This document shows positions 10,285 to 58,123 of a stretch of DNA of 64,000 bases, in pieces. The notes under the pieces were generated by a model, which saw only the letters and a list, made by a program, of their open reading frames with translations, did no database searches and had not been told where the DNA came from. How positions within the stretch are numbered: position 1 is the stretch's first letter; the number at the start of each line of letters is the position of its first letter. The translations under genes were made by a program, and so were the position numbers. The stretch comes from Bacteroides uniformis (GTDB lineage Bacteria > Bacteroidota > Bacteroidia > Bacteroidales > Bacteroidaceae), in the NCBI RefSeq assembly GCF_025147485.1, contig NZ_CP102263.1, positions 1,687,501-1,751,500 of the forward strand. The letters are read 5' to 3'.

Positions 10285-10788
10285 ATGAGACATAATAAGA
10301 AATTCAACCATTTGGGTCGTACTGCCTCTCATAGAAACGCTATGTTGGCTAATATGGCGTGTTCTTTGATTAAGCACAAAAGAATCACTACGACCGTTGC
10401 AAAGGCTAAAGCTTTGAAGAAGTTTGTTGAGCCTTTGATTACAAAGGCTAAAGACGATACGACTAATTCCCGTCGTGTTGTATTTAGCAATTTGCAAGAC
10501 AAGTATGCTGTAACTGAATTGTTTAAAGAAATCTCTGTGAAGATTGCTGATCGTCCGGGTGGTTACACTCGTATTATCAAGACTGGTAACCGTTTGGGTG
10601 ACAATGCTGAAATGTGCTTCATTGAACTCGTTGACTACAACGAAAACATGGCTAAGGAAAAGGTTGCCAAGAAGGCTACTCGTACCCGCCGTTCAAAGAA
10701 AGCTGCTGCTACTGAAGCTACTCCTGCTGCAGAAACTGCTGCACCAGTTGCAGAAGCTCCTGCTGCTGAGGAAGCTAAAGCTGAATAA
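10285..10788 (+). CDS. rplQ: 50S ribosomal protein L17 with Ala-rich tail
   Basis: A 167-residue protein. Residues 1-120 are the normal L17 fold ([17 protein letters not shown] and [14 protein letters not shown]); the last 45 residues are a low-complexity Lys/Arg stretch followed by Ala/Glu/Pro repeats, an extension seen in Bacteroidota L17. L17 lies at the tunnel exit. It is the last gene of the cluster and is followed by an intrinsic terminator. Confidence 0.96.
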
Positions 10789-10813
10789 TTCAACTATTCT
10801 TTTTATATATAGA

Positions 10814-10845
10814 AGCCGTTCCAATTTGTTTGGAGCGGCTTTTTA
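10814..10845 (+). terminator. Intrinsic terminator of the ribosomal cluster
   Basis: AGCCGTTCCAA (10814-10824) pairs with TTGGAGCGGCT (10830-10840), 11 bp with one G-T pair and a five-base loop, followed by TTTTT. It ends 57 bases after the rplQ stop. Confidence 0.9.
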
Positions 10846-10912
10846 TTTCCTATAAATCATCCAAGAAACATTAAAAGATGTGTGCATTAAACAAATTCCT
10901 GAAAGAAACTGT

Positions 10913-10920
10913 TATATTTG
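10913..10920 (+). promoter_or_regulatory. Promoter -7 box of the short secreted protein gene
   Basis: TATATTTG matches TAnnTTTG and lies ten bases before the ATG at 10930. If used, the 5-prime leader is only a few bases. No clear TTTG -33 element is visible. It argues against the in-frame TTG at 10918 as start. Confidence 0.55.
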
Positions 10921-10929
10921 CACATAGAT

Positions 10930-11343
10930 ATGGCTAAATTCTTAAGATTCATAGGATTCATGGTGCTTGCATTGGCTTTATGGCAGACTGTAAGCGATAC
11001 ATTTGCCAATAAAGCGGCGAGTGGTGGGAATGTTGTGAGTGAGAATACTATTGCCGTACATGAGCAGACTGATGCCTATATTGCGATGCCTCAATTGCCT
11101 TATCTGCCGGATGCAGAGCTGGCGGGCATGGGTGGACAATTACATTCGCTGACGTACTCCCGTATACAGCGCATTTCTACCACGGAATATATATTTTCTT
11201 TAAAGGACTGGATTGACAAACTGGCCCAGCGAGCGGCTGTTTTGTCTCTGCATCGTGAGAAACTCTATGATGCCACTGCCTATTATCGTTGCCAGCCGGT
11301 GTGCGAATATTACATTTTCACACTAAGGCGTATTCTCATTTAG
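10930..11343 (+). CDS. Short secreted protein with C-terminal TLRRILI motif (copy A)
   Basis: A 137-residue protein of unknown function. The first 30 residues (MAKFLRFIGFMVLALALWQ...) look like a signal peptide or signal anchor. The middle is poorly conserved, and the protein ends EYYIFTLRRILI directly at the stop. The gene at 52019 encodes a protein of the same size, with a signal sequence and the ending DYYIYTLRRILI; KLY about 26 residues before the end is also shared. In the ten identical end residues, seven codons differ synonymously, which indicates selection on the peptide. No enzyme motif is visible. ATG 10930 is preferred over TTG 10918, which falls in the promoter box. Confidence 0.75.
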   Translation: MAKFLRFIGFMVLALALWQTVSDTFANKAASGGNVVSENTIAVHEQTDAYIAMPQLPYLPDAELAGMGGQLHSLTYSRIQRISTTEYIFSLKDWIDKLAQRAAVLSLHREKLYDATAYYRCQPVCEYYIFTLRRILI

Positions 11344-11452
11344 TGTTTTATTGAATCTTCCTTTTTCCCTTGTGTATGGTCAGACTATGTGTTTTTGCAG
11401 GGAAATACTGTATTTTCTATTTCTAATAAATTCATTAAAACATATTATAATT

Positions 11453-11992
11453 ATGGCAACTCAAACTATTGACGCAACTCTTTTTGCGTCTTCACATCCC
11501 GATATTGTAAAGCGTACCAGTGTTTCAGGACTTATCTTTTCAGTAGCTATGCTGCTGGTCGGTGTTTTTATTTTTGCATCCATTTTTGAGATGAGTGATA
11601 AATCTTCCACTCTCAGCATGGCTTTGATGGTGCTGGGTACGGCATTCGTCTTGCTTGGCGTGTTCCGTCTGTTTTGGAAATCGAAGGAAGTGGTCTATTT
11701 GCCGACGGGCAGTGTGACCAAGGAACGCAGTGTTTTCTTCGATTTGAAATATTTGGGCAAACTTACAGATATGATTGAGAATGAACAGCTGAATGGCGAG
11801 ACTGAAATAAAAAGTAGCGGCAGTGGAAATGTGCGCATGGATGTCATGATTTCGCAGGACAATAAATTTGCGGCTGTACAGTTGTATCAGTTTGTGCCTT
11901 ACACGTATACTCCGGTAACTTCCGTACGCTACTATACGGGTAGCGATGCGGTTGCAGTATCTACTTTCCTGGAGAAATGTAAAACAGCATAA
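11453..11992 (+). CDS. Two-TM membrane protein of unknown function
   Basis: A 179-residue protein starting MATQTIDATL. Two hydrophobic segments (about residues 23-45 and 53-75) form a hairpin in the inner membrane; the C-terminal 100 residues are soluble, mixed alpha/beta, and begin after WKSKEVVYLPTGS. The reading frame extends 34 codons further upstream, but that part is a cysteine- and Phe-rich run without coding character. I do not recognise the family. The gene is convergent with the MutS-like gene. Confidence 0.7.
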   Translation: MATQTIDATLFASSHPDIVKRTSVSGLIFSVAMLLVGVFIFASIFEMSDKSSTLSMALMVLGTAFVLLGVFRLFWKSKEVVYLPTGSVTKERSVFFDLKYLGKLTDMIENEQLNGETEIKSSGSGNVRMDVMISQDNKFAAVQLYQFVPYTYTPVTSVRYYTGSDAVAVSTFLEKCKTA

Positions 11993-51699: not shown

Positions 51700-52018
51700 G
51701 TTTTATATACCTCTCCTCTAACATTCCGTTTCTACCGCTAATCACTATACCTTATTATATATAATTATTCATCATATATTCATCAGATTAATTCCCGAAT
51801 TAAGGTGCTAAATGAATGATTAAAAACTTTTAAATCAGTATTTTATATCCTATTTCCACTTTCGTATTTCATATATTCTTCGTACCTTTACAGTGTATTA
51901 AAAGGTATAGTAAATCCTTTAATCAGTGAACAATTTAATCTTTTTACAAAAGAAAGTAACATAGCTGTAAAACAAATAAGAGAGACATCTGTTATTTATT
52001 GTAGAATCATTAGACGAC
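51700..52018 (+). other. Intergenic region before the second secreted-protein gene
   Basis: About 319 AT-rich bases. Apart from the weak promoter at 51860-51890 I see no gene, repeat or structured RNA. A reading frame on the minus strand across its end (51919-52251) is a shadow. Confidence 0.5.
51860..51890 (+). promoter_or_regulatory. Weak promoter of the 52019 gene
   Basis: TTTC (51860-51863), 19-base spacer, TACCTTTA (51883-51890), each one base from consensus. The leader would be about 120 bases. Confidence 0.45.
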
Positions 52019-52465
52019 ATGAAAACAACTGTAAAGACATTCTGGATATGCATGCTACTGATGTTGACTTGCAGCATTAGCGGTAAAGCCATTGACCTGG
52101 TGCAGGTGGATGACAGAATGGCCGGAACTGCTGAAGTTTCCGCTTCTTTATCTTCATGTTCTTCTACTTCCGACAATAGTATTGACAAGAAGAATTCATT
52201 GTTCACGAATACCAAGTTCGCATGGACTACGGATGTCGAACTGGGAAACAAACCGGTTTCCGAAACTTACTCTTCTCATCAACAGCGTTTGCGCAGGGTG
52301 ATTGAAGACAATCTTTTCCTCAGAAACATTCTTTTGATGTTATCCAACCACGAGAATCTACTCGTGCAAGGCCGCTCTAAATTATACTACTCAGATAAAG
52401 ACCCGTACTATGCATTGACGGGCAGTGATTACTATATTTATACGCTTCGGCGGATTTTGATTTAG
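52019..52465 (+). CDS. Short secreted protein with C-terminal TLRRILI motif (copy B)
   Basis: A 148-residue protein of unknown function with a signal peptide (MKTTVKTFWICMLLMLTCSISGKA). The mature part is Ser/Thr/Asn-rich, then has a helix-like stretch (RLRRVIEDNLFLRNILLML), and the protein ends DYYIYTLRRILI. This ending and size match the gene at 10930; the rest has diverged, so they are distant paralogs. It stands alone after the rRNA operon, with about 200 bases before the exbB gene. No catalytic motif is visible. Confidence 0.75.
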   Translation: MKTTVKTFWICMLLMLTCSISGKAIDLVQVDDRMAGTAEVSASLSSCSSTSDNSIDKKNSLFTNTKFAWTTDVELGNKPVSETYSSHQQRLRRVIEDNLFLRNILLMLSNHENLLVQGRSKLYYSDKDPYYALTGSDYYIYTLRRILI

Positions 52466-52664
52466 CCAACTTTTCTTCTTATTGATTTCCCCCTTTTTCT
52501 CCTTATTGTCTTGAAGAGACTGAAGGCAGGTGACCTTTAGTGTACATATATGTTAGTTAAGGTTGCAAGGATGATTACGCCCTGTCGGTTCGTAAGCGGG
52601 AAGTCGTATCCCTATGCTTTATTTTCAAAACTCTATTTAAATACCAACAATTAAACTTTTCATC

Positions 52665-53477
52665 ATGGAAACTACTCAAAAAAAAGCAGCCTCTTTTAAA
52701 GGCATCAGATCCGCCGGTTGGGTAATCGTAATCTGTTTTATCATCGCCGTGCTTATTTTTCACTTTGTGTTGGGAAATCCCTCCAACTTTATGAACAACG
52801 ACCCGAACAACCATCCGTTGCCGGGTAACTTCCTCGGTACCATCTATAAAGGTGGATTCATTGTTCCTGTAATTCAAACGCTTTTGCTGACTGTCATCGC
52901 ACTGAGTATTGAACGTTATATTGCCATTGGCGCTGCCTTTGGTAAGGGGTCATTGGTGAAATTCGTAGCTAACATCAAAGCAGCCTTGGCTGAAGGTGAT
53001 ATGAAGAAGGCACAACAAATCTGCGATTCACAACGTGGTTCTGTAGCCAATGTGGTAAATGCCACTTTGAAGAAGTATGCCGAGATGGAGAATGACACAG
53101 AGCTGTCCAAAGACCAGAAACTGCTTGCCATCCAGAAGGAATTGGAAGAAGCCACTGCGCTGGAACTGCCGATGATGGAGCAGAATCTTCCTATTATTGG
53201 TACCATCACGACTTTAGGTACATTGATGGGATTGCTCGGTACAGTTATCGGTATGATCCGTTCATTTGCCGCCCTTGCAGCCGGAGGTTCAGCCGACTCC
53301 ATGGCTCTGTCGCAAGGTATTTCTGAGGCTTTGATTAATACTGCCTTCGGTATCTTGACCGGTGCATTGGCCGTTATCTCCTACAACTATTATACAAACA
53401 AGATTGACAAGTTGACTTACAGCCTCGATGAGGTTGGTTTCTCCATCGTGCAGACTTTTGCAGCTACCCATAAATAG
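52665..53477 (+). CDS. exbB: MotA/TolQ/ExbB proton channel protein
   Basis: A 270-residue inner-membrane protein. Transmembrane segments lie near residues 18-38, 62-85 (FIVPVIQTLLLTVIALSIERY), about 170-200 (PIIGTITTLGTLMGLLGTVIGM) and 220-245. The GTxxGLLGTVIGM stretch is the family signature. With the two ExbD proteins and TonB that follow, it converts the proton gradient into outer-membrane transport energy. Confidence 0.92.
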   Translation: METTQKKAASFKGIRSAGWVIVICFIIAVLIFHFVLGNPSNFMNNDPNNHPLPGNFLGTIYKGGFIVPVIQTLLLTVIALSIERYIAIGAAFGKGSLVKFVANIKAALAEGDMKKAQQICDSQRGSVANVVNATLKKYAEMENDTELSKDQKLLAIQKELEEATALELPMMEQNLPIIGTITTLGTLMGLLGTVIGMIRSFAALAAGGSADSMALSQGISEALINTAFGILTGALAVISYNYYTNKIDKLTYSLDEVGFSIVQTFAATHK

Positions 53478-53570: not shown

Positions 53571-54176
53571 ATGGGCAGAGCGAAAATAAAAAAGAAAAGT
53601 ACGTTCATCGATATGACGGCGATGAGTGACGTAACTGTACTGCTGCTGACCTTCTTCATGCTGACTTCTACGTTCGTGAAGAAAGAGCCGGTACAAGTAA
53701 CGACTCCCGCCTCTGTATCCGAGATTAAGATTCCGGAGACAAATGTACTCCAGATATTGGTCGATCCGAGCGGAAAAGTATTTATGAGTCTGGACAAGCA
53801 GTCCGACTTGCGCGAAGTGCTGGAAGCTATGGGGCAGGAGTATGGAGTGACTTTCACTCCGGAGGAAACTAAAAAATTCATGCTGGCGTCTACCTTTGGT
53901 GTGCCGATGAAGAGTATGAAGAAATACCTCGACTTGCCGCAAGACCAGCAAGATGCTGTATTGAAGAATGAGGGGATACCGACAGACAGTATTGACAATC
54001 AGTTCAAGGCCTGGGTACGCAACGCCCGTGCAGTGAACAGTGATTTGCGCATTGCCATCAAGGCAGATGCCAATACTCCTTATTCCGTAATAAAAAATGT
54101 GATGAACTCACTTCAGGACCTCAGAGAGAACCGGTACAACCTGATTACTTCTCTGAAGACCACAAGTGAAGAGTGA
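53571..54176 (+). CDS. exbD: ExbD/TolR-family biopolymer transport protein (first)
   Basis: A 201-residue protein with one TM near residues 17-37; the proton-binding Asp lies in MTAMSDVTVLLLTFFML. The periplasmic domain is longer than in Escherichia coli ExbD (141). It is the first of two tandem ExbD genes; they are only distantly similar. Confidence 0.9.
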   Translation: MGRAKIKKKSTFIDMTAMSDVTVLLLTFFMLTSTFVKKEPVQVTTPASVSEIKIPETNVLQILVDPSGKVFMSLDKQSDLREVLEAMGQEYGVTFTPEETKKFMLASTFGVPMKSMKKYLDLPQDQQDAVLKNEGIPTDSIDNQFKAWVRNARAVNSDLRIAIKADANTPYSVIKNVMNSLQDLRENRYNLITSLKTTSEE

Positions 54177-54215: not shown

Positions 54216-54866
54216 ATGGCTGAAATACAAGAAAGCGGCAACAAGAAAGGTGGAAAAAGCAAGCAGAAGAAAATGACTGTCAGGGTGGACTTTACACCTA
54301 TGGTGGACATGAACATGTTGCTGATTACCTTCTTTATGCTTTGTACCTCACTGAGCAAACCTCAGACCATGGAGATAAGCATGCCGAGCAATGACAAGAC
54401 CATCACCGAGGAGCAGCAGACCAAAGTCAAGGCTTCCCAAGCCATCACGCTGTTGCTGGGGGATGACAACAAGTTGTATTATTACGAAGGGGAACCTAAC
54501 TACAAGGACTATACTTCACTGAAGGAAACTACCTATCAGGCGGATGGTCTGCGGGCAATGCTTCTGCAACGTAATAGAGTTGCTGTGAACGAGGTGAACA
54601 GACTGAAGCAGCAGAAACTGGATCTTAAGATATCAGAGGATGACTACCGGAAACAGCTTTCCGAGATAAAAAGCGGAAAGGATACGCCGACAGTCATCAT
54701 CAAGGCTACCGATAAGTCTTCGTACAAGAATCTGATTGATGCTCTCGATGAAATGCAGATATGTAATATAGGTAAGTATGTGATAACGGATATTGCCGAA
54801 GCCGACGAGTTCTTGATGAAGAACTACGAAAGCAAGGGCGAATTGTCCCAGAACATTGCTGAATGA
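54216..54866 (+). CDS. ExbD/TolR-family biopolymer transport protein (second)
   Basis: A 216-residue protein with a basic N-terminus (KKGGKSKQKK), one TM near residues 28-47, and the conserved aspartate in VDFTPMVDMNMLLITFFML. A long periplasmic part ends DALDEMQICNIGKYVITDI. Probably pairs with the first ExbD in a heteromeric complex with ExbB. Confidence 0.9.
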   Translation: MAEIQESGNKKGGKSKQKKMTVRVDFTPMVDMNMLLITFFMLCTSLSKPQTMEISMPSNDKTITEEQQTKVKASQAITLLLGDDNKLYYYEGEPNYKDYTSLKETTYQADGLRAMLLQRNRVAVNEVNRLKQQKLDLKISEDDYRKQLSEIKSGKDTPTVIIKATDKSSYKNLIDALDEMQICNIGKYVITDIAEADEFLMKNYESKGELSQNIAE

Positions 54867-54894: not shown

Positions 54895-55710
54895 ATGGCT
54901 AAAGTAGATTTAAGCTCCCAAGCATGGTGTGACCTCGTGTTCAGTGGTAAGAACAAAGCATATGGAGCCTATAAGATGCGTGAGACCTCTCCCAGACGGC
55001 ACAACATTGCCGTGATACTGGTAATTGTAATTGCATTGATAGGTTTCAGTATCCCTACGCTGATAAAGATGGCTACCCCCAAACAGAAAGAGGTGATGAC
55101 CGAAGTGACTACCCTTTCGCAGCTGGAAGAACCGGAAGTGAAGCAGGAAGAGATGAAGCGGATAGAGCCCGTGGCCCCACCGCCGCCTGCATTGAAAAGC
55201 TCCATTAAGTTTACCGCTCCCGTCATCAAAAAGGATGAGGAAGTGAGGGACGAGGATGAAATAAAAAGCCAGACAGAACTGACGGAAACGAAAGTTGCCA
55301 TCTCCATTGCCGACGTGAAAGGTAATGACGAGGAACACGGCAAGGACATCGCCGACTTGAAACAAGTGGTGACGCAGGCCGAACCGGAACCTGAAAAGGT
55401 TTTCGATATGGTAGAGCAGATGCCCCAGTTCCCCGGTGGTCAGGCCGAGATGATGCAGTTCATCAGCAAGAATATGAAGTATCCGACCATTGCCCAGGAA
55501 AACGGTACGCAAGGGCGTGTAACCTGCCAGTTTGTGGTAGGTGCCGACGGCAAGGTGCGTGATGTGAAAGTGCTGAGAGGTGTAGACCCCTATCTGGATA
55601 AAGAAGCTGTCCGTGTGATTATGTCCATGCCCAAATGGATTCCCGGCAAGCAGAATGGTAAGGCCGTATCGGTGAAATATACGATACCGGTGATGTTTAG
55701 ATTACAATAA
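54895..55710 (+). CDS. tonB: Energy transducer TonB
   Basis: A 271-residue protein. One TM near residues 35-55, a Pro/Glu/Lys-rich linker (EPVAPPPPALK), and a C-terminal TonB domain (residues about 185-271: MKYPTIAQENGTQGRV, VSVKYTIPVMFRL). It spans the periplasm and opens TonB-dependent receptors such as SusC-type porins. Ends 11 bases before the PstS-like gene. Confidence 0.93.
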   Translation: MAKVDLSSQAWCDLVFSGKNKAYGAYKMRETSPRRHNIAVILVIVIALIGFSIPTLIKMATPKQKEVMTEVTTLSQLEEPEVKQEEMKRIEPVAPPPPALKSSIKFTAPVIKKDEEVRDEDEIKSQTELTETKVAISIADVKGNDEEHGKDIADLKQVVTQAEPEPEKVFDMVEQMPQFPGGQAEMMQFISKNMKYPTIAQENGTQGRVTCQFVVGADGKVRDVKVLRGVDPYLDKEAVRVIMSMPKWIPGKQNGKAVSVKYTIPVMFRLQ

Positions 55711-55721
55711 GTGTGTGTGTT

Positions 55722-56672
55722 ATGAAAACGGTGAAACAACTTCAGCTTTCAGGCTTGCTGGTGCTGCTGACTCTGCTGTCTGCCTGCCAAAGCAAGCCCA
55801 AGGACGGACAAACGGATACGTATACCTCCGGTGTGATTGCAATTGCTGCGGACGAAAGTTTCCAGCCTATTGTGCAGGAAGAAATTGACGTGTTCGAAGG
55901 ACTGTTCCCCTTGGCAGGAATTGTGCCCCGTTATGTGACGGAAGTCGATGCCGTCAACCTCTTGCTCAAGGACAGTCTGCGGTTGGCAATAACCAGTCGC
56001 AGACTGACTCCCGAAGAGATGAATTCCTTCAATAGCCGGAAGTTTTTTCCGCAGGAGATAAAGATTGCTACGGACGGGCTGGCATTGATAACCCATCTTG
56101 GCAATCCGGATTCATTGATTAGTGTGAAGGACATCCGCCGCATCCTGACGGGTGATGCGAAGCAGTGGAAAGATATCTATCCGGCTTCCCGTCTGGGGGA
56201 TATCAGTCTTGTGTTTGACAACAAGAACTCCAGTACCGTACGTTTTGCTGTCGATTCCATCTGTAAGGGTGTACCGCTTTCCAGTCAGTTGAAAGCGTTG
56301 AAAACCAATAGGGAGGTGATTGACTACGTGGCCCGCACGCCTGATGCCATCGGTATTATCGGCGTGAACTGGCTGAGCGACCGGAATGACAGTACGGGGC
56401 TCTCTTTCAGTAAAGAGGTGCGGCTGATGTCCGTCAGTGCTGCTGACAAGGCCATGCCGGACAACAGTTACAAACCCTATCAGGCGTATTTGTATTACGG
56501 TGATTATCCGTTGGCACGCAGCATCTATGCCTTGTTGAATGATCCGCGGAGCGCACTTCCGTGGGGATTTGCCTCTTTCCTCGCTTCCGACCGGGGACAG
56601 CGGATTATATTGAAGTCGGGATTGGTCCCCGCCACCCAACCGGTGCGCGTGGTGAACGTCAAGGATGAATAA
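55722..56672 (+). CDS. PstS-like substrate-binding lipoprotein
   Basis: A 316-residue lipoprotein (signal ending LLSACQSK). The domain resembles PstS: VIAIAADESFQPIVQEEID at the start, SRRLTPEE where PstS has the anion-binding serine region, and a GIIGVNWLSDR-like block. No pst permease or ATPase genes lie nearby; instead it is linked to exbBD-tonB and a TPR gene, so phosphate transport is not certain. A GTG nine bases upstream is less likely as start. Confidence 0.75.
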   Translation: MKTVKQLQLSGLLVLLTLLSACQSKPKDGQTDTYTSGVIAIAADESFQPIVQEEIDVFEGLFPLAGIVPRYVTEVDAVNLLLKDSLRLAITSRRLTPEEMNSFNSRKFFPQEIKIATDGLALITHLGNPDSLISVKDIRRILTGDAKQWKDIYPASRLGDISLVFDNKNSSTVRFAVDSICKGVPLSSQLKALKTNREVIDYVARTPDAIGIIGVNWLSDRNDSTGLSFSKEVRLMSVSAADKAMPDNSYKPYQAYLYYGDYPLARSIYALLNDPRSALPWGFASFLASDRGQRIILKSGLVPATQPVRVVNVKDE

Positions 56673-56677
56673 CTAAA

Positions 56678-58123
56678 ATGAATGCTAACATGAAACGTAG
56701 ATTTGTATTTTGTTTGGGAGCGATGCTGTTTGCAGGTACGCTCGCCGCACAAACGCCGGTGCCCGAATGGCAGGCGGGGGTGGATAAAGTAAAAAGTCTG
56801 ATAAAGACGAATCCGGAGCAGGCTTCCGACGCAGCCGGAGAACTGCTGAAGGGCAAGAACAAGAAAAATGTGGAGCTTGTGACTTCCGTGGCCCGTGCCT
56901 ATCTGGATGCAGGACAGCTGAAAGAGGCGGAAACCTATCTGGAGATGGCAAGAAAGGCCGACAACAAGGCTCCGGCAGTTTCTGTACTCGAGGGTGACAT
57001 CGCTTTTGCCCGGAAAGATATCGGAAAGGCATGCCAGCTTTATGAGCAAGCCATCTATTTTGATTCGAATTATAAGGATGCGTATCTGAAATATGCGCAG
57101 GCATACAAGTCTGCCAGTCCTTCGCAGGCCATAGAGAAGCTGAACCAGCTGAAGGCCATAGCTCCGGATTGCCTGGAAGCAGACAAGGAGCTGGCGGAAG
57201 TGTATTACGCCACCAACCGTTTTGGCAAGGCTGCCGACACCTATGCCAAGTTCATCGATACTCCCGTGGCTACGGAAGATGACATCCTGAAATATGCTTT
57301 TGCACTATTCCTGAACCACGACTTCGAGAAATCCTTGGCGGTGGCGCAGAAAGGTTTGCAGAAGAATGCCCGCCATGCCGCATTCAACCGGCTTGTGATG
57401 TACAACAATGTCGACCTCAAGCGTTATGACGAGGCAGAGAAGGCTGCCGATGCTTTCTTCAATGCTTCGGATAATGCCGATTATTCATGCTTGGATTACC
57501 GCTATCACGGTGCTCTGTTGAGTGCTCTGAAGAAATATGACCAGGCCATTGAGGAATATGGTAAGGCATTGGAGAAGGATGAGAGTCAGGTGGATTTGTG
57601 GCGTGAGATTGCCGATGCTTATGAATTGAAAAACGACTATACCCAAGCCATTGCTGCTTATAAAAAGTACTATGACTCGCTGGCACAAGGTAAAAAGACG
57701 TCCGAAAACTTATTCCAGTTAGGGCGTCTGTACTACGGAGAGGGTACGTCCTCGGACACTCTCTCCGTTCAGTCTGCCGACCGCATGGCGGCATTGCAGG
57801 CTGCCGACTCTGTGTTCGCACTTGTTGCCGAACAAGCTCCCGACAGTTATTTGGGAGATATGTGGCGCGCCCGCACACACTCTGCCATGGACCCCGAAAC
57901 TACAGAGGGATTGGCGAAACCTTATTACGAGAAGGTGGTGGACGTACTGCTTGCCAAAAACGAACCGAGGTACAACTCTGCATTGATAGAGTGTTACAGT
58001 TATCTGGGCTACTACTATCTGTTGAAGAGTGACTATGCTACTTCGAAAGAGTACTGGAATAAAATTCTGGCTATCGACCCCACCAATGCCACAGCAAACA
58101 AGGCATTGGACGGCATCAAATAG
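56678..58123 (+). CDS. Tetratricopeptide-repeat protein, periplasmic
   Basis: A 481-residue secreted protein (signal MKRRFVFCLGAMLFAGTLAAQ from the second Met, 56690). About ten TPR-like repeats are visible, e.g. AYLDAGQLKEAETYLEMARK and KYDQAIEEYGKALEKDES. TPRs mediate protein contacts; its position after TonB and the PstS-like gene suggests a scaffold for this Ton system. It is the last gene before a terminator. Confidence 0.85.
   Translation: MNANMKRRFVFCLGAMLFAGTLAAQTPVPEWQAGVDKVKSLIKTNPEQASDAAGELLKGKNKKNVELVTSVARAYLDAGQLKEAETYLEMARKADNKAPAVSVLEGDIAFARKDIGKACQLYEQAIYFDSNYKDAYLKYAQAYKSASPSQAIEKLNQLKAIAPDCLEADKELAEVYYATNRFGKAADTYAKFIDTPVATEDDILKYAFALFLNHDFEKSLAVAQKGLQKNARHAAFNRLVMYNNVDLKRYDEAEKAADAFFNASDNADYSCLDYRYHGALLSALKKYDQAIEEYGKALEKDESQVDLWREIADAYELKNDYTQAIAAYKKYYDSLAQGKKTSENLFQLGRLYYGEGTSSDTLSVQSADRMAALQAADSVFALVAEQAPDSYLGDMWRARTHSAMDPETTEGLAKPYYEKVVDVLLAKNEPRYNSALIECYSYLGYYYLLKSDYATSKEYWNKILAIDPTNATANKALDGIK

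Follow-up and report, generated by a model that had tools for sequence, protein, structure and literature searches.

TnaC is the familiar case of a nascent chain that stalls at a stop codon and thereby governs the genes downstream; its leader is short and cytoplasmic, senses tryptophan and acts in a Rho-dependent manner. Two arrest leaders of Bacteroidota, uDF_NAP-stop and uA_NSP-stop, were shown to stall while the A site holds the stop codon (Fujiwara et al. 2024, PMC10987492); both end in proline and precede secA or secDF. In that survey the arrest-peptide monitors guard Sec or YidC genes, and the median signal-to-stop distances listed are 131.5 for the long form of SecM and 133 for VemP. 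In uDF_RQH_Enterobacterales, from the same paper, a leader stall disrupts a stem masking the next start, the RGPP motif lies within the frame and the target is secDF2. Outside the Sec machinery, PMC9426467 describes the CruR/DUF2946 uORF, which uses a CXXC motif and Rho, and PMC12992588 describes RAPP/RGPP uORFs before TonB-related genes.

We analyzed a 64,000-nucleotide stretch of Bacteroides uniformis DNA (contig NZ_CP102263.1, positions 1,687,501 to 1,751,500; hereafter the window). It contains two genes that we read, with a probability of about 0.75, as regulatory leaders of the translation-arrest kind, in which a stall at the stop codon would control the next gene:

10930..11343, forward strand: leader 1, 137 residues from ATG, hydrophobic N-terminus, ending in CQPVCEYYIFTLRRILI-TAG
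11290..11343, forward strand: last 17 codons and stop of leader 1, predicted arrest motif (last codon ATT, stop TAG)
52019..52465, forward strand: leader 2, 148 residues, ending in SDYYIYTLRRILI-TAG
52412..52465, forward strand: last 17 codons and stop of leader 2, predicted arrest motif

The ATG was taken as the start of leader 1, whose frame opens at an earlier TTG in the list of open reading frames. A sequence-only reading had pointed out both frames, which exist at the lengths and positions it gave, and their shared ending (YYIFTLRRILI in leader 1, YYIYTLRRILI in leader 2). Seven of the ten identical end residues use different synonymous codons and the three matching codons are all ATT (Ile), so that the peptide, and not the DNA, is conserved, as that reading held. 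Its claim of little similarity outside the tail stood less well: the tail match is real, but BLASTP aligns 99 columns of the two proteins with 31 identities (E 6e-7, the value for this pair), and by this alignment they are distant, diverged paralogues rather than proteins with just a common tail. Neither leader matches a Pfam family up to E 10, the DUF2946 (CruR) profile included; in NCBIfam, leader 2 has no match and leader 1 has two weak matches below cut-off. In the open-licence literature, searched by title and abstract, we found no paper describing such a leader family.

The likeness to TnaC would lie in a nascent-chain stall at the stop codon, whereas TnaC, being short and cytoplasmic, differs from the leaders seen here, which carry an export signal. 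With uDF_NAP-stop and uA_NSP-stop (PMC10987492) our leaders share the phylum and the build, with a signal for export at the N-terminus, then a spacer, and a C-terminus conserved right at the stop, but they end mostly in Ile and stand before a gene for a 179-residue protein, exbB or other genes. Of the traits by which that survey recognizes Sec/YidC monitors, we find a signal or transmembrane segment, a conserved C-terminus and a spacer longer than 30 residues, but not a uORF position before secA, secDF or yidC. The predicted stall disrupting a start-masking stem recalls uDF_RQH_Enterobacterales, except that the motif here is at the stop. CruR (PMC9426467) and the RAPP/RGPP uORFs (PMC12992588) are similar in that leaders with arrest motifs serve outside the Sec machinery, TonB-related genes included; the RAPP/RGPP motifs of these uORFs occur in 0/96 of our leaders. 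SecM-secA and VemP-secDF2 (PMC11470409 and PMC10987492) likewise pair a secreted leader with a stall that permits downstream expression, at a similar signal-to-stop distance. Our leaders have a different motif, a stall predicted at the stop codon and targets not recognized as Sec machinery, and arrest itself is a prediction here.

Close relatives of the leader were located by a genome-contig scan in B. rodentium, B. fluxus, B. clarus, B. muris, a Bacteroides MAG and B. propionicigenes. Searches of 201 family genomes returned 20 and 17 genomes with matches up to E 0.1, many of them non-members; the recognized members have the same kind of tail, ending at the stop. A profile search reached other families of the order (14/393 genomes at E 0.01, some false), and a broader profile matched 35/295 order genomes at E 0.01, again some false, with five sites in the window's own genome. 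A genus sample gave a match in 36/80 genomes, with up to four matches each, two of those in G848 being possibly one split gene. Judged by these matches, both window genes belong to a Bacteroidales leader family with members across several families of the order. Our leader counts omit L209 (a 281-residue protein), L130 (contig end) and L009 (in-frame stop), together with search matches that have no motif-like tail or lie within longer genes; L129, with its neighbor on the other strand, and L162, with no start assigned, are within the sets of 84 and 96 leaders and outside that of 82. About eleven (L068, L069, L071, L076, L078, L079 and L081-L085) are counted mainly by position, length and signal, and the counts contain relatives and are not independent events.

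The family is built of an N-terminal hydrophobic signal, a weakly constrained spacer and, placed right at the stop, an end approximating YY[VI][FY]xLR[RHK]I[IL]I. All 45 measured leaders have a hydrophobic stretch near the N-terminus (best 14 residues with a mean KD of at least 1.9; signal peptides are judged from hydrophobicity only), and in all 45 the spacer from the end of this stretch to the stop is 99-128 residues long. L127 has a 361-codon leader frame with a canonical C-terminus and an N-terminal profile match ∼0.5 kb farther upstream in the same frame, possibly through a spacer insertion. In L009, from a MAG, both the leader and the 179-residue frame at the expected place carry an in-frame stop, through an error in the assembly, decay of the two genes together or the choice of a wrong frame.

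A Cys pair lies within the last 22 residues, just before the ending, in 21/96 leaders. Such a pair would suit an arrest leader whose nascent chain senses a small molecule, a metal or the redox state instead of export, and CruR offers a precedent, its CXXC uORF sensing copper and heading a TonB-transporter operon (PMC9426467). This explanation, which overlaps ours on arrest itself, is possible but doubtful: Cys is not general (position -13 is C in 35/84 and S in 24/84 leaders) and leader 2 has no pair.

Conservation in the leaders is concentrated at the stop. In an alignment of six Bacteroides orthologues, pN/pS starts at 0.43 over the signal, reaches 0.65 over columns 29-60, drops to 0.37 and 0.19 beyond them, and is 0.019 across the final 17 codons. 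The most constrained positions in 84 leaders are Y-10 (69), L-6 (71), R-5 (71), I-3 (70) and I-1 (73). As the sequence-only reading had proposed, the ending sits exactly at the stop, in both window leaders and in recognized relatives, and most homologues retain it: 63/96 leaders have the strict motif and the other 33 are variants, most of them recognizable and some far off. The last residue is Ile in 84/96 leaders and Pro in 0/96. Among 12,306 distinct ORF ends a loose motif has 29 matches, namely 28 collected leaders and L009, which speaks against chance. That reading had named an occurrence inside longer proteins as evidence against it; a stricter motif, scanned over 271,423 residues of open frames of at least 100 residues (overlapping loci counted repeatedly), occurs at the frame end of 53 distinct sequences and internally in none. 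Known arrest motifs (RAPP/RGPP/RAGP/RAPG-like, NSP/NAP-stop, DGMK-stop, LPPP and KYxIW) were each found in 0/96 leaders within the last 160 residues.

Since the last codon is NNT in 92/96 leaders and the stop is TAG in 66/96 (background, 17/113 stops after open frames of at least 250 codons), the constraint on the leader end acts on nucleotides as well as on residues. Ile is encoded by ATT in 71/73 cases at position -1 compared with 41/70 at position -3 (84 leaders; Fisher 5.5e-9, from related and not independent sequences). The NNT bias persists in leaders whose last codon is not part of the RNA arm described below (38/40) and in those with variant ends (32/33).

Downstream of leader 1, the RNA around the stop could pair with that in front of the next start:

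11342..11357, forward strand: 5' arm AGUGUUUUAUUGAAUC of a predicted anti-initiation stem, overlapping the leader 1 stop
11429..11444, forward strand: 3' arm AAUUCAUUAAAACAUA of the predicted stem, just upstream of the next start codon
11453..11992, forward strand: 179-residue protein, presumed target of leader 1, modeled with two long hydrophobic helices and an alpha/beta domain

Minimum-free-energy folds of the gaps suggest pairing between RNA from the leader stop onward and the stretch immediately preceding the next start. We compared duplexes between stop -9..+27 and start -45..+9 (windows picked after viewing folds of the first 45 loci) with those of partners shuffled between loci. The mean over 45 loci is -12.64 kcal/mol compared with -7.81 (SD 0.36) kcal/mol for shuffled partners (0/20,000 permutations), and -12.89 compared with -7.82 (0/20,000) with seven near-duplicates removed. 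Sliding either window abolishes the complementarity (z is -12.5 at the stop and -2.1 to 0.7 at other positions). The 179-residue class alone (n = 55) averages -12.3 against -7.7 (0/20,000), with 46/55 loci at -9 or below, and 18 later-fetched loci of this class, congeners of part of the first set and thus only partly independent, give -11.19 against -8.00 (z -5.3, 0/20,000); z is -5.1 for all 37 new loci pooled. Leader 2 has the features of a leader, and the RNA stem route to exbB is not seen there (duplex -4.3, rank 0.89); exbB leaders of the genus Bacteroides show no complementarity (z 0.3 for 12 later loci, z 0.1 for 15 Bacteroides-type loci). The value for all 19 exbB loci (z -2.9, 34/10,000) is driven by L016, L030 and L031; taken singly, L204 fits the stem and L087 does not. 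Outside both main classes the duplexes are strong for L198 (nuoA-like, -13.1), L197 (DedA-like, -14.0) and L051 (-13.8), moderate for L138 (-11.3) and L199 (-10.6), and unremarkable for L201 and L207 (nuoA-like), L128, L132, L133 and L139 (DedA-like) and L135 and L136 (Hdr-like). In the host genome, the paired ranks in a pool of 82 are 0.00/0.02 (L197), 0.02/0.06 (L198), 0.05/0.06 (L199), 0.13/0.06 (leader 1) and 0.90/0.84 (leader 2); elsewhere L204 and L206 are extreme (0.00/0.00) and L205 ranks 0.12/0.02.

When pairs under the footprint of a stalled ribosome were barred, the mean openness of the start region rose from 0.43 to 0.60 and increased in 40/45 loci (leader 1, 0.42 to 0.59; leader 2, 0.67 to 0.67). 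A control block placed elsewhere left the mean unchanged (up in 20/40), and an earlier accessibility run, in which the leader part was longer and the start window narrower, gave a change from 0.46 to 0.50 only. The gaps fold more stably than shuffled sequence (mean z -2.9; 27/45 below -2, by an approximate shuffle). A start-masking stem that a ribosome at the leader stop could open is predicted in the 179-residue class only.

Such a stem would by itself suffice for coupling without arrest, in which ordinary termination briefly melts the stem and the conserved tail has another role; transient stem opening by an arrest-defective leader is assumed in PMC10987492. We regard this as unlikely: it leaves the conserved C-terminus at the stop, the NNT and TAG preferences and the export signal unexplained.

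Three other RNA arrangements were tried and set aside. Pairing between the start region and leader codons ahead of the stop is weak (p 0.0065 with near-relatives included; p 0.027 for window e-63..e-27), an alignment fold pairing leader codons with the next start is not general, and for a general intrinsic terminator in the gap 11/45 gaps have no candidate hairpin and T-run. In 9/45 gaps a terminator-like candidate hairpin exceeds -9 kcal/mol in strength (a count with no control), and attenuation could operate in those nine. Rfam returned no match at gathering score in 10700-11600 or 51700-52800, the best being L10_leader at the rplQ end (34.9 compared with 44 bits). The gap between leader 2 and exbB (52466-52664) has a ∼100-nt block in common with its close relatives L140, L145, L146 and L164, which is absent in L151; as a structured element it was rejected, with a weak consensus fold and no Rfam match. 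In another Bacteroides group (L144 and L147-L150), the exbB gaps have in common a block near GUGUNUCUAAUC as well as hairpins ahead of exbB, a candidate for a separate regulatory element.

A same-strand gene starts 58-252 nt after the leader stop in 82/84 leaders. Targets of the first 45 leaders were picked by rule as same-strand ORFs of at least 120 codons after the stop, to which we then assigned start codons. The 82 loci comprise the 179-residue protein (55), exbB (19), DedA-like (4), Hdr-like (2), nuoA-like (1) and CitMHS (1) targets; we take DedA, nuoA, Hdr (Fe-S) and, for CitMHS, NhaD to be the appropriate names. Pfam was run on the exbB operon of the window and on L051, L133, L135, L138, L197, L198, L199 and L203, the other class members being assigned by likeness, and no secA, secDF or yidC neighbor was recognized beside the leaders by these means. 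Among later-added loci, L197 is DedA-like, L198, L201 and L207 are nuoA-like, and L199 precedes a 145-residue protein with no Pfam match followed by OAD_beta, the beta subunit of a Na+-transporting decarboxylase. L200 has no ORF of at least 45 residues starting within 470 nt. In L129 the next listed gene is on the opposite strand, and the leader may be an orphan or its target missed. Behind L202, L203 and L208, which come from one family and end in R-K-[IL]-I-I, lie small hydrophobic ORFs that may form another target class. The five host copies are on contig G000:C1 at 1698430 (leader 1, 179-residue protein), 1739519 (leader 2, exbB), 2971904 (DedA-like), 2050313 on the minus strand (nuoA-like) and 1065476 (145-residue protein, then OAD_beta).

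At E 0.001 the 179-residue protein of the window has a match in neither Pfam nor NCBIfam, and three distant members of its family have matches below Pfam cut-offs only. An AlphaFold model from six sequences (pLDDT 70, pTM 0.50) shows a pair of long helices at the N-terminus together with an alpha/beta domain, with no fold match by Foldseek against the PDB (best E 0.14). We found the protein in 26/247 genomes of the order sample (E 1e-6) and, in a phylum-wide sample of 247 genomes, in its own genome and in one other as a partial match (E 6e-6). A leader-like ORF lies directly upstream of the gene at 24/26 loci (the window, L057 and 22/24 further loci, about eleven of these 22 with strongly divergent ends); the two loci lacking one are L077 and L080, and the ORF in L077 begins like the L205 leader and stops earlier. 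This family of Bacteroidales membrane proteins diverges fast. Leader 2 precedes exbB, whose probable operon comprises:

52665..53477, forward strand: exbB (MotA/TolQ/ExbB), presumed target of leader 2, PF01618 E 2.1e-28
53571..54176, forward strand: exbD, PF02472, probably same operon
54216..54866, forward strand: second exbD, PF02472, probably same operon
54895..55710, forward strand: tonB, PF03544 E 2.4e-21, probably same operon
55722..56672, forward strand: PBP-superfamily binding protein, PF12849, probably same operon
56678..58123, forward strand: TPR protein, several TPR families, probably same operon

An exbB orthologue occurs in 49 family genomes, and of the 41 examined six have a leader (the window, L016, L030, L031, L040 and L087); among the 35 leaderless loci, L093, L098, L101 and L103 were compared over less than 600 nt upstream, too short to exclude a leader. 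The occurrence of leaders before exbB is patchy.

The hydrophobic N-terminus of all measured leaders, the hydrophobic-basic ending and the Cys pair before it would also fit a secreted or membrane protein in its own right, its tail serving as a sorting signal, a processed peptide or a binding tail for neighboring membrane proteins. The sequence-only reading had raised ideas of this kind (processed peptide, sorting signal or membrane-insertion tail), which fail to explain the NNT last codon and leave unexplained the TAG preference, the synteny with the downstream gene and, in the 179-residue class, the stop/start RNA complementarity. Weakly constrained spacers (pN/pS up to 0.65) and downstream genes of differing families also speak against a secreted protein, which we hold to be improbable. 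Chance or common DNA ancestry of the two tails has nothing but the common tail in its favor and can be dismissed, with seven of ten codons differing and the ending recurring across the order.

In the arrest reading, the ribosome would make a nascent chain composed of export signal, spacer and C-terminal motif. With the motif in the exit tunnel and a stop codon, preferably UAG after NNU, in the A site, termination would slow and the ribosome park. A motif acting in the tunnel fits because conservation is confined to the last ∼17 codons, and an effect of P and A site at termination fits because the NNU-UAG bias persists with the last codon outside the stem. The parked ribosome would cover the 5' arm of the stem, and the start of the next gene, otherwise masked by the 3' arm, would open. 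Sec export would then pull the nascent chain, ending the pause and closing the downstream gene; release by export fits because the leaders carry a signal sequence. The recognized targets are largely ion- or proton-linked membrane machines, the Fe-S Hdr-like proteins being the exception, and this suggests that membrane energization may be sensed. More tentatively, the leaders could form a regulon of export-coupled, stop-stalling chains that gauge membrane energization: less motive force would mean less Sec export, leaders would stay parked with no protein regulator involved, and at low proton or sodium motive force the targets would switch on together. These would be complex I, the Na+-pumping decarboxylase, ExbBD-TonB, the DedA protein, ion transporters and the uncharacterized membrane protein.

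If true, control by nascent chains would reach, through this leader family, into the membrane bioenergetics of major gut bacteria. New here are the predicted stop-codon arrest motif with its codon-level signature, NNU-UAG, and the targets; the architecture itself is known. Glycan uptake in Bacteroides depends on the TonB energizer, to which such a leader would give a regulatory logic. For the 179-residue membrane protein, with no family or fold match, the link to a leader would point to its role, and the five copies in the host genome would make a testable multi-operon circuit.

The sequence-only reading had further linked both leaders to growth-rate loci. This does not generalize and looks incidental: upstream ORFs at other leader loci differ (their products not identified by search), and the DNA upstream of L006 and L008 is unlike the rplQ end. 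In G135 exbB lies behind an rRNA operon, yet no leader was found. An rRNA operon (LSU and 5S) precedes the exbB operon in 4/4 Bacteroides genomes checked (L165, L166, L167 and L168), of which L166 is leaderless. Upstream of leader 1 we note two elements:

10813..10844, forward strand: terminator-like hairpin and T-run after rplQ, read from sequence
10913..10920, forward strand: promoter box TATATTTG, 9 nt before the leader 1 ATG, by alignment, fitting TAnnTTTG, which we take to be the Bacteroides -7 box consensus

The hairpin, which has counterparts in several, but not all, relatives, would part leader 1 from the ribosomal operon. The 5' UTR of leader 1 is likely very short or absent because the promoter box ends 9 nt before the ATG. 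Leader 2 is one of those with no TAnnTTTG box within 45 nt. Over the collection, the box is found at most 45 nt before the chosen leader ATG in 59/90 leaders, compared with 1/82 downstream-gene starts, and in 50/84 leaders when any candidate ATG is counted.
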